Of a stretch of DNA of 36,233 bases, positions 27,350-29,933 are shown in pieces. Made by a program: the position numbers and the translations under genes. The stretch lies in the NCBI GenBank assembly GCA_028290695.1, contig JAQGJJ010000060.1:1-36233 (forward strand), in the 5' to 3' direction. Source of the DNA: Enterovirga sp. (GTDB taxonomy: Bacteria > Pseudomonadota > Alphaproteobacteria > Rhizobiales > Beijerinckiaceae). Each line of letters begins with the position of its first letter. Position 1 is the first letter of the stretch. The notes under the pieces are model-generated. The model worked only from the letters and a program-made list of their open reading frames with translations. It was not told the origin of the DNA and did no database searches.

Positions 27350-27434
27350 AGGTCGGCTCTCCTGTTGATGCGGAGCGCGGATGTTGCTAGCGCCGCGCCT
27401 CCTGCGGGCCGAAGGCGCGCGATCGGCACCTCCG

Positions 27435-28028
27435 ATGACGGCTGAAAGCGGCGATCTTTGGGTCTTCGGCTACGGCTCGCTGATGTGGCGCCCCGGCTTT
27501 CCCTTCCGCGAGCGCAGCCTTGCGACCCTGCACGGCTACCACCGCTCCCTGTGCATCTTCTCGCACGTGCATCGCGGCACGCCCGAGGCCCCAGGCCTCG
27601 TGCTCGGCCTCGATCGGGGCGGACGCTGCCGCGGTGTCGCCTTCGCGGTGGAGCCGGAGCATGCGGACGGGACGATCGCCTATCTGCGCGAGCGGGAGCA
27701 GGCCACGTCCGTGTATCTGGAGCGGCACGTCCCGATCCGGCTCGCGGATGGACGCGCGGTGAAGGCCGTGACCTACGTGGCGGACCGGAACCACCCCCAA
27801 TATGCCGGGCGGCTGCCGACCGAGGACCTGCTGCACCTCGTCAATCAAGGCGTGGGCATCTCGGGCGCCAATCCGGACTACGTCACCGCCACCCACCAGC
27901 ATCTCGCCGAGATGGGCGTCAGCGACCCGGTGCTGGCCGCCATCGCCGAACGGCTCGCTCAGGCGGCCGATCCGACCAGATCCGCCACCACGGCCAGCCG
28001 TTCGGCCTCGTTGTCCGCCAGGCGGTGA
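27435..28028 (+). CDS. Gamma-glutamylcyclotransferase (ChaC family)
   Basis: DLWVFGYGSLMWRPGFPFRERSLATLHGYHRSLCIFSHVHRGTPEAPGLVLGLDRGGRCRGVAFAV. Confidence 0.93.
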   Translation: MTAESGDLWVFGYGSLMWRPGFPFRERSLATLHGYHRSLCIFSHVHRGTPEAPGLVLGLDRGGRCRGVAFAVEPEHADGTIAYLREREQATSVYLERHVPIRLADGRAVKAVTYVADRNHPQYAGRLPTEDLLHLVNQGVGISGANPDYVTATHQHLAEMGVSDPVLAAIAERLAQAADPTRSATTASRSASLSARR

Positions 28029-28384
28029 ACATGCAGCTCGGTCGCGCCGCCGCCGCGCACCGCGGCGAGCCACGACGAACGGTCGCGCCGCGAGCTACGC
28101 GACCCGGGCGCCGCCGCGCCCACGAGTTCCGCCACCCCGTCCCGGCTGCGCTGCACGGCGAGCACGACCGCCTCCGTCAGGTCCGCCAGGTCCGGCTCCG
28201 AGGCCGCATGGACGCCGACGACATAGCGTCGTCCCGACCGCCCGCGCCATGACGTGAGCGCCGGCGGCTCGCGCAAGCCGGCCGTCGCCCGCAGCCGCTC
28301 TTCGCAGACCAGCGCGCGGCCCAGCCGCTCGGTCCGCTTCTCGCGCATTCCTGCCCAGGACGGGATACGGCAGATGTTCGTCAT
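27959..28384 (-). CDS. Uncharacterised 141-aa protein, predicted SOS-regulated
   Basis: MTNICRIPSWAGMREKRTERLGRALVCEERLRATAGLREPPALTSWRGRSGRRYVVGVHAASEPDLADLTEAVVLAVQRSRDG...ATELHVHRLADNEAERLAVVADL; protein-like composition; two LexA-type boxes upstream. Alternative start 28348. Confidence 0.7.
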   Translation of the reverse strand: MTNICRIPSWAGMREKRTERLGRALVCEERLRATAGLREPPALTSWRGRSGRRYVVGVHAASEPDLADLTEAVVLAVQRSRDGVAELVGAAAPGSRSSRRDRSSWLAAVRGGGATELHVHRLADNEAERLAVVADLVGSAA

Positions 28385-28390
28385 TTGTTC
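28376..28390. promoter_or_regulatory. LexA (SOS) box, alphaproteobacterial type GTTC-N7-GTTC
   Basis: gttc gtcattt gttc. Confidence 0.7.
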
Positions 28391-28424
28391 TCAATGACGA
28401 CATCCAGGTGCGAAGTCAACCGGT

Positions 28425-28439
28425 GTTCCTCAGATGTTC
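28425..28439. promoter_or_regulatory. Second LexA (SOS) box, GTTC-N7-GTTC
   Basis: gttc ctcagat gttc, 49 bp from the first box. Confidence 0.7.
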
Positions 28440-29188
28440 TCGGGGCCGGTGTAGCCGCGCGCACCGGGCCCGGCCCCCGAACCCTCCAACAGAAGCCGCT
28501 CGGAAGCGCTCTCGATGCGGTCCTGCAGCGTCCGCAGGAAGGTCTCGCGGTCGAGCCCGGGCGGGATCGGGTCGAGGAACTCGACCACGATGGTGCCCGG
28601 CTCGAGCACGAACCTCCGGCGTGGCCAGAACAGCCCGGAATTGAGCGCGACCGGGACGCAGGGCACCTTGAGGGTCCGGTAGAGGTGGGCGACGCCCTGC
28701 CGATAGGCCGGCGCGGCCCCCGGCGCCGTGCGGGTGCCCTCCGGATAGATCAGGATCTGCCGTCCGTCCCGCACGGCCTCGACCGCGAGCTTGTTCATAT
28801 CGGAGATCGCGGCTGCGCCCTTGGCACGATCGATCGGGATCATGCGGGCCTTGATGGCGAACCAGCCCCAGAACGGGATCAGCGTCAGTTCGCGCTTCAG
28901 CACGAAGGTCGGGTCGTCGAATTGCGGCAGCAGCGCATGGATGTCGGCGAAGGACTGATGCTTCGAGGCGACGAGGCAGCCGCCCGGCGGGATGCGGTCG
29001 AGGCCGCGATGCTCGACCCGCGTTCCCACGATCACCCGAAGCAGCACCAGGCTGAACCGCGACCAGGCCTGCGCCACCCGCAGGATGGCGATGCGCGGCA
29101 TGAGAAGCGTCGGAATGATCGCGATCAGCCACAGCGTCGTGTTCAGGTAGAACGCGACCTGGAAGACGAGCGAGCGGAACAGAAGCAT
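28430..29188 (-). CDS. plsC: 1-acyl-sn-glycerol-3-phosphate acyltransferase (PlsC family)
   Basis: GCLVASKHQSFADIHALLPQFDDPTFVLKRELTLIPFWGWFAIKARMIPIDR...GRQILIYPEGTRTAPG; NHQSFxD-like and EGTR motifs; ATG at 29188. Confidence 0.92.
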   Translation of the reverse strand: MLLFRSLVFQVAFYLNTTLWLIAIIPTLLMPRIAILRVAQAWSRFSLVLLRVIVGTRVEHRGLDRIPPGGCLVASKHQSFADIHALLPQFDDPTFVLKRELTLIPFWGWFAIKARMIPIDRAKGAAAISDMNKLAVEAVRDGRQILIYPEGTRTAPGAAPAYRQGVAHLYRTLKVPCVPVALNSGLFWPRRRFVLEPGTIVVEFLDPIPPGLDRETFLRTLQDRIESASERLLLEGSGAGPGARGYTGPENI

Positions 29189-29243
29189 CGGGGTGCCGGG
29201 CGCGGCGGACCGCAGGGGACCGGGTCTTAGCGAAGGGGCACCG

Positions 29244-29933
29244 TCATGGCGAGGCCCGCGACACGCGATGGTCGGCCTGTCCCGACCCGGCGGCCGCGCC
29301 AGGAGGAAGCGCATTGCGGACCCGCACCACGAGATACTTGGCGTATTCCTCCAGCAGCAGCCGCGCGGCCGCCGGCTTCCACCACCAGCCGGCGCCATCG
29401 AGTGCCGGCGAGATGACGACGTGGGGCACCTTCTTGGTCCGGGGCAGGACGCGGTCGAGCTCCGCCATGGTGCGGGGCATGTGGTAGTTCGAGGTCACCA
29501 CGATCAGCGAGCCGAAGCCGTTGCGCTCGACCCAGCGGCCCGTCTCGGCGGCGTTCTCGATGGTGTTGCGGGCCCGGTAGTCGAGATCCACGCAGCACTG
29601 AACAAGGCTGCGCTGGCGCGGGCTGAGCCGGGTGATCTCGTCCCGGCTCGTGCGCTCGTTGACTCCCGTGATGAGGAGGCGGCCGCCATAGCCGCGTGCC
29701 AGGAGCTCGATCGCGTCACCCACCCGCTGGGCGCCGCCCGTCAGCGCCACGATGCCGTCGGCGGCGCCGGGAGGATCGCGTTCCGTGAGCTTGAGCGAGG
29801 CCACGAAGAAGCCGAACCCGACGATCCCGCATGCCCCGAGCACGGCGAGCGCGAGCGCGAGCGCCTTGAGCGCCCGGCCCCACGACCGGGGGCGGGCCGC
29901 GTCGCGGGCCATAGGACGAACATCCGCCGTCAT
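29244..29933 (-). CDS. YdcF family (DUF218) membrane protein
   Basis: DGIVALTGGAQRVGDAIELLARGYGGRLLITGVN...NTIENAAETGRWVERNGFGSLIVVTSNYHMPRTMAEL; ATG at 29933. Confidence 0.88.
   Translation of the reverse strand: MTADVRPMARDAARPRSWGRALKALALALAVLGACGIVGFGFFVASLKLTERDPPGAADGIVALTGGAQRVGDAIELLARGYGGRLLITGVNERTSRDEITRLSPRQRSLVQCCVDLDYRARNTIENAAETGRWVERNGFGSLIVVTSNYHMPRTMAELDRVLPRTKKVPHVVISPALDGAGWWWKPAAARLLLEEYAKYLVVRVRNALPPGAAAGSGQADHRVSRASP

Follow-up and report, generated by a model that had tools for sequence, protein, structure and literature searches.

A 141-amino-acid gene in a contig of Enterovirga sp. raises the question of whether it belongs to the LexA (SOS) regulon and, if so, what kind of protein it places under DNA-damage control. 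The gene occupies positions 27959 to 28384 on the minus strand of the window, by which we mean the whole 36,233-nucleotide stretch of DNA that was analysed. An earlier note on this DNA had drawn attention to two copies of GTTC-N7-GTTC in front of the gene and proposed a candidate new SOS-regulated factor. GTTCN7GTTC is the operator of the alphaproteobacterial LexA regulon, as described in Caulobacter (PMC12700426). The upstream neighbour on the same strand is a plsC-like acyltransferase gene (28430 to 29398, minus strand, with the open reading frame taken from the first possible start; Pfam Acyltransferase, E 2e-20). The 3' end of the 141-aa gene shares 70 bp (27959-28028) with a convergent ChaC-like gamma-glutamylcyclotransferase gene on the plus strand (27381 to 28028; Pfam ChaC, E 6e-42). 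Both the gene's coordinates and the plsC stop at 28430 were as the note had given them.

An exact pattern search recovered both sites at the positions reported for them, with box 1 at 28376-28390 (GTTCGTCATTTGTTC; GAACAAATGACGAAC on the gene's strand) and box 2 at 28425-28439 (GTTCCTCAGATGTTC; GAACATCTGAGGAAC on the gene's strand). The window holds four exact GTTC-N7-GTTC sites against 0.86 expected, a count reached in none of 100 shuffles. Along the minus strand, plsC is followed by box 2, ACCGG, TTGACT, 17 bases, CATTGA, box 1 and the gene. Box 1 is conserved in all seven congeners with complete sequence, and a promoter alignment reveals that box 2 is absent from congeners. The two sites are thus not equivalent, and the significance that had been drawn from their occurrence as a pair is weakened accordingly.

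The source genome, which is 61% complete and comes from the genus of Enterovirga aerilata, contains 84 exact GTTCN7GTTC sites against 20 for the reversed control pattern. Most of these single sites probably occur by chance, so position has to serve as the test. Exact sites are found just upstream of lexA, imuA and ssb, and recA carries GAACAAAACGGGTAC, which has one mismatch to the motif; the genomic LexA motif therefore does not differ from the boxes described in the earlier note. Two radical SAM loci, L064 (G000:C103:3449) and L067 (G000:C45:13890), also carry exact LexA boxes directly upstream. Their genes, one of the PA0069 family and one of TIGR03916 (named 'putative DNA modification/repair' radical SAM, an rSAM linked to UDG), are by this arrangement suggested to be SOS genes as well. 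A weight matrix built from loci of other genera was used to rank all 84 sites, and box 1 took fourth place behind imuA, PA0069 and ssb. The fifth-ranked exact box (L078, G000:C64:7836) lies near an ORF of 88-93 aa that has no Pfam family, and the sixth (L068, G000:C41:17618) has no obvious downstream gene by a mechanical ORF test. Box 2 falls outside the top 22. Given this rank, its lack of conservation in congeners and its overlap with the 3' end and stop of plsC, just upstream of the -35 element, we rejected box 2 as an equal partner of box 1. Its function is uncertain, and it may be a chance match or a recent gain. Box 1, judged by conservation and rank, is very probably a true LexA operator.

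Homologues of the 141-aa gene are present in 31 of 60 relatives, and a profile search identified them in 181 of 298 sampled Hyphomicrobiales genomes, in nearly all cases as a single copy. A class-wide sample yielded homologues in only 7 of 386 genomes, four of these outside the order, and the family is thus rare in the class beyond Hyphomicrobiales. Scanning up to 400 bp upstream of the conserved region located GTTCN7GTTC at 95 of 121 homologous loci (91 of 116 once duplicates were removed). The same scan found the reversed motif at none, and spacings of 5, 6, 8 and 9 at 2, 0, 3 and 3 loci, respectively. Boxed loci span 23 families of the order, as families are labelled by the tool, so the upstream comparison of orthologues proposed in the earlier note bears out box 1. 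About 25 loci from several families carry no exact box and are concentrated in a few of these (f2, f34, f35 and f12, plus single cases). No convincing degenerate box was found in the box-less clades, where for nearly every locus the best score lies inside the range of shuffled sequence or close to it. The orientation of the box flips between clades, and six loci (L012, L013, L021, L095, L121 and L129) carry a pair of oppositely oriented LexA boxes (GTTC..GTTC, then GAAC..GAAC) at one promoter. In Methylobacterium bullatum (L085, NZ_LR743510.1), a boxed homologue lies in a stretch of the record for which the collection used has no annotated gene.

The minus-strand TTGACT at 28414-28419 is present as had been noted and constitutes a -35 element whose TTGAC is conserved in all aligned promoters of the genus and its near relatives. 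The promoter alignment and the spacing together point to CATTGA (28391-28396, minus strand), a weak match, as a -10-like hexamer; it sits 17 bp after the -35 element and directly before box 1, and reads TATATA in homologue L002. A general promoter scan called no consensus promoter in this region of the window because the -10 is weak there. Among homologous loci, 74 of 100 boxes have TTGAC in the 45 bp upstream of them, as against 3 of 100 in the equivalent downstream stretch. The distance between TTGAC and the box has two preferred ranges: 18-20 bp, chiefly with boxes in the GTTC orientation, and 29-31 bp, with the GAAC-oriented boxes that the window's clade carries. Judged from these distances, a -10 element set off by a 17-bp spacer would fall within the N7 stretch of the box, whose consensus is TATTTTT, or abut the box on its upstream side. 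A -10 in or beside the box would be the arrangement expected of a repressor operator.

Box 1 also includes the start codon of the gene (ATG, 28384-28382), in agreement with the overlap reported earlier. This in-box ATG is retained in 8 of 8 congeners. In Enterovirga, L010 and L035 it is followed by a similar peptide (M.N.R.LSW..SMRD.R.ER), and codon-position variation after it is consistent with coding. A downstream start at 28348, which had been suggested since it would place both boxes in the promoter, is not supported by conservation and was rejected, because L003 lacks the internal start and L005 has GTG there, whereas the in-box ATG is conserved. Several Methylobacterium-like homologues start downstream instead, at MREERLR behind GGAG. 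A leaderless message is possible in the window's genus.

The earlier note had recognised no known SOS protein in the 141-aa product, and this part of its view stands: the protein has no Pfam, NCBIfam, PHROGs or PADLOC family. Identity with ImuA, RecA or another known SOS protein was rejected on the same four collections. When the window protein was examined together with 28 family members, none matched a Pfam or NCBIfam model, and neither collection can name the gene because neither has a model for the family. What had been missed is a link to GIY-YIG nucleases. A tblastn search with one family member led to a Bradyrhizobium barranii plasmid gene (L084) annotated 'GIY-YIG nuclease family protein', and the Bradyrhizobium protein used as a query against whole genomes matches the window gene directly (E 5.3e-9, 34% identity). 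A profile of the family compared with five intact GIY-YIG proteins yields E 5.9e-17, and E 5.2e-17 when the Bradyrhizobium sequence is removed. Enterovirga alone gives E 1.3e-7 against this reduced intact set, whereas 30 column-shuffled controls of the profile comparison gave E values of at least 0.12. The five intact proteins have in common the invariant residues Y, Y, G, R, H, G, E and N. Three of them were tested against Pfam GIY-YIG and gave weak matches below the cut-off, and the profile of the intact set matches UvrC GIY-YIG crystal structures (E 6.6e-4), with I-TevI further down. Set directly against Pfam-type GIY-YIG sequences, the family falls short of significance (E 0.05), so the link between them is transitive and runs via these intermediates. 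On this evidence from sequence, the 141-aa product is assigned a shared ancestry with the GIY-YIG superfamily.

The catalytic residues have fared differently from the scaffold. No family member keeps more than two of the five catalytic positions Y/Y/R/E/N, and the window protein has V, G, R, V and a gap at these columns. The GIY...YIG half-motifs with both tyrosines are not found, and the YIG tyrosine is unseen at its column throughout the family. Retained are the scaffold motifs W.G.SG..Y and GA.E.HVH.LAE...R....DL, of which the W.G.SG..Y hairpin, the E.H.H strand and the terminal DL are nearly invariant. These comparisons identify the product, at the level of sequence, as a decayed GIY-YIG relative that has lost its catalytic residues.

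Structure-based searches yield little beyond this. The family profile gave nothing significant against solved structures. AlphaFold models built from two sequences (pLDDT 72 in full and 81 [80.7] for the core) have the order strand-strand-strand-strand-helix-strand-helix, which is compatible with GIY-YIG, and a fold search with them returned no significant PDB or viral match. Among the highest TM-scores listed in that search was 2lwf (E 1.2, TM 0.44), a plant glutaredoxin N-terminal domain that we take to be the GIY-YIG domain of GRXS16. The N-terminal domain of GRXS16 is a GIY-YIG endonuclease (PMC5890173).

Gene neighbourhoods were compared by using clusters of mechanical ORFs, which makes the counts approximate. 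plsC is a recurrent neighbour of the family gene (~52 loci), and the chaC- and DUF2125-side neighbours recur in ~27-35 family loci. Because of these recurrent neighbour sets, the family is seen to hold recognisable positions and to retain its box across differing contexts. A ribonucleotide reductase (barrel domain) gene adjoins the family gene in approximately 27 loci (L027, L055, L089, L112 and others), an adjacency that may connect the family with the supply of nucleotides during damage.

Taken together, LexA control of the 141-aa gene is strongly supported by comparison of promoters and genomes, and the gene probably encodes a new component of the DNA-damage response that extends across the order. 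The proposal of a candidate new SOS-regulated factor thus stands at the level of comparative genomics, with boxed orthologues and the same genomic motif. We consider it likely that the whole reading is correct, in which box 1 is a LexA operator and the product a degenerate, non-catalytic GIY-YIG protein of the SOS response. The operator would lie next to the -10 of a sigma-70-type promoter (TTGACT-17-CATTGA) and to the position where transcription probably starts. DNA damage would then free this promoter through RecA-driven cleavage of LexA; operator and promoter are conserved, and from this we infer binding and induction. The product, which keeps the scaffold motifs and no catalytic set, might attach to DNA that is damaged or branched, or to a repair partner, and so regulate or shield it during the SOS response. 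Such a non-catalytic activity is the most likely single reading of the protein's function, at somewhat below an even chance. Equally tentative is the fuller proposal that the gene encodes an undescribed order-wide SOS effector, in which a dead GIY-YIG domain under LexA acts as a damage-induced regulator that binds DNA or repair complexes.

These proposals must be weighed against other explanations. If the boxes arose by chance or mark the binding of a different regulator, the gene would lie outside the LexA regulon. The large number of probably fortuitous sites in the genome and the clades that lack a box speak for such an explanation. However, the density of the motif in the source genome predicts a box in the scanned stretch at only ~1.3% of loci and 78% have one, the box recurs at fixed distances from TTGAC, and known SOS genes of the same genome carry the same motif, which together make this explanation highly improbable. 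A different objection is that the protein is still an enzyme, with the fold re-used and a new active site built from invariant residues. The candidate residues are the second His of HxH, the Asp of the C-terminal DL and the W/G/SG/Y hairpin. Of the 91 boxed members, 90-91 do retain the second His, the W.G glycine and the DL aspartate, whereas the former catalytic positions have drifted, and R.Hpy188I tolerates Lys in place of the YIG Tyr (PMC2630997). However, the HxH and DL positions may be structural because they are partly shared with intact nucleases, and Pfam, NCBIfam, PHROGs and PADLOC showed no known alternative-enzyme motif. We therefore regard a re-purposed enzyme as unlikely.

The protein could also be an SOS-induced checkpoint on cell division or replication, comparable in function to SidA of Caulobacter or SulA of E. 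coli, with the dead fold supplying a protein-binding surface. A small, mostly single-copy, order-wide and LexA-controlled protein with conserved non-catalytic residues would suit this role. SidA and DidA have a membrane segment, though, and none is evident in this sequence; the recurrent neighbours, moreover, are plsC, chaC or a ribonucleotide reductase gene and not division genes. We regard this explanation as unlikely too, slightly more so than a re-purposed enzyme.

For Hyphomicrobiales, a large order that includes rhizobia, methylobacteria and their relatives, most of what is known about LexA regulons has been transferred from model organisms by analogy. A gene that has stayed under LexA control in 23 families is likely to be important when cells have to survive DNA damage. 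What is new here is the homology of its product to intact GIY-YIG nucleases together with the loss of the catalytic residues. If the preferred reading of a non-catalytic SOS product is true, then a nuclease fold that has lost its active site has stayed under the control of DNA damage, which would make it an unusual instance of a repair-type enzyme converted to another purpose; this can be tested directly.

With respect to known systems, the locus agrees with the alphaproteobacterial LexA regulon in operator motif, spacing and companion genes (lexA, imuA and ssb), and the 141-aa gene is named in no paper that we found. The protein family is homologous over ~96 columns to the GIY-YIG superfamily, as represented by the UvrC N-terminal domain, I-TevI and the small L084 protein. 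It shares the W.G.SG..Y hairpin and the GATE-HIH strand with the small intact members, but has lost the catalytic Tyr, Tyr, Arg, Glu and Asn set. Unlike the 141-aa family, none of the intact GIY-YIG loci found for this subgroup has a LexA box. Cho (YdjQ) of E. coli is an SOS-induced, catalytic, UvrC-like GIY-YIG nuclease. Both Cho and the 141-aa protein are GIY-YIG-related and LexA-controlled, the latter by prediction, whereas Cho is catalytic and UvrC-like and the 141-aa protein belongs to a small, separate lineage without the catalytic residues.
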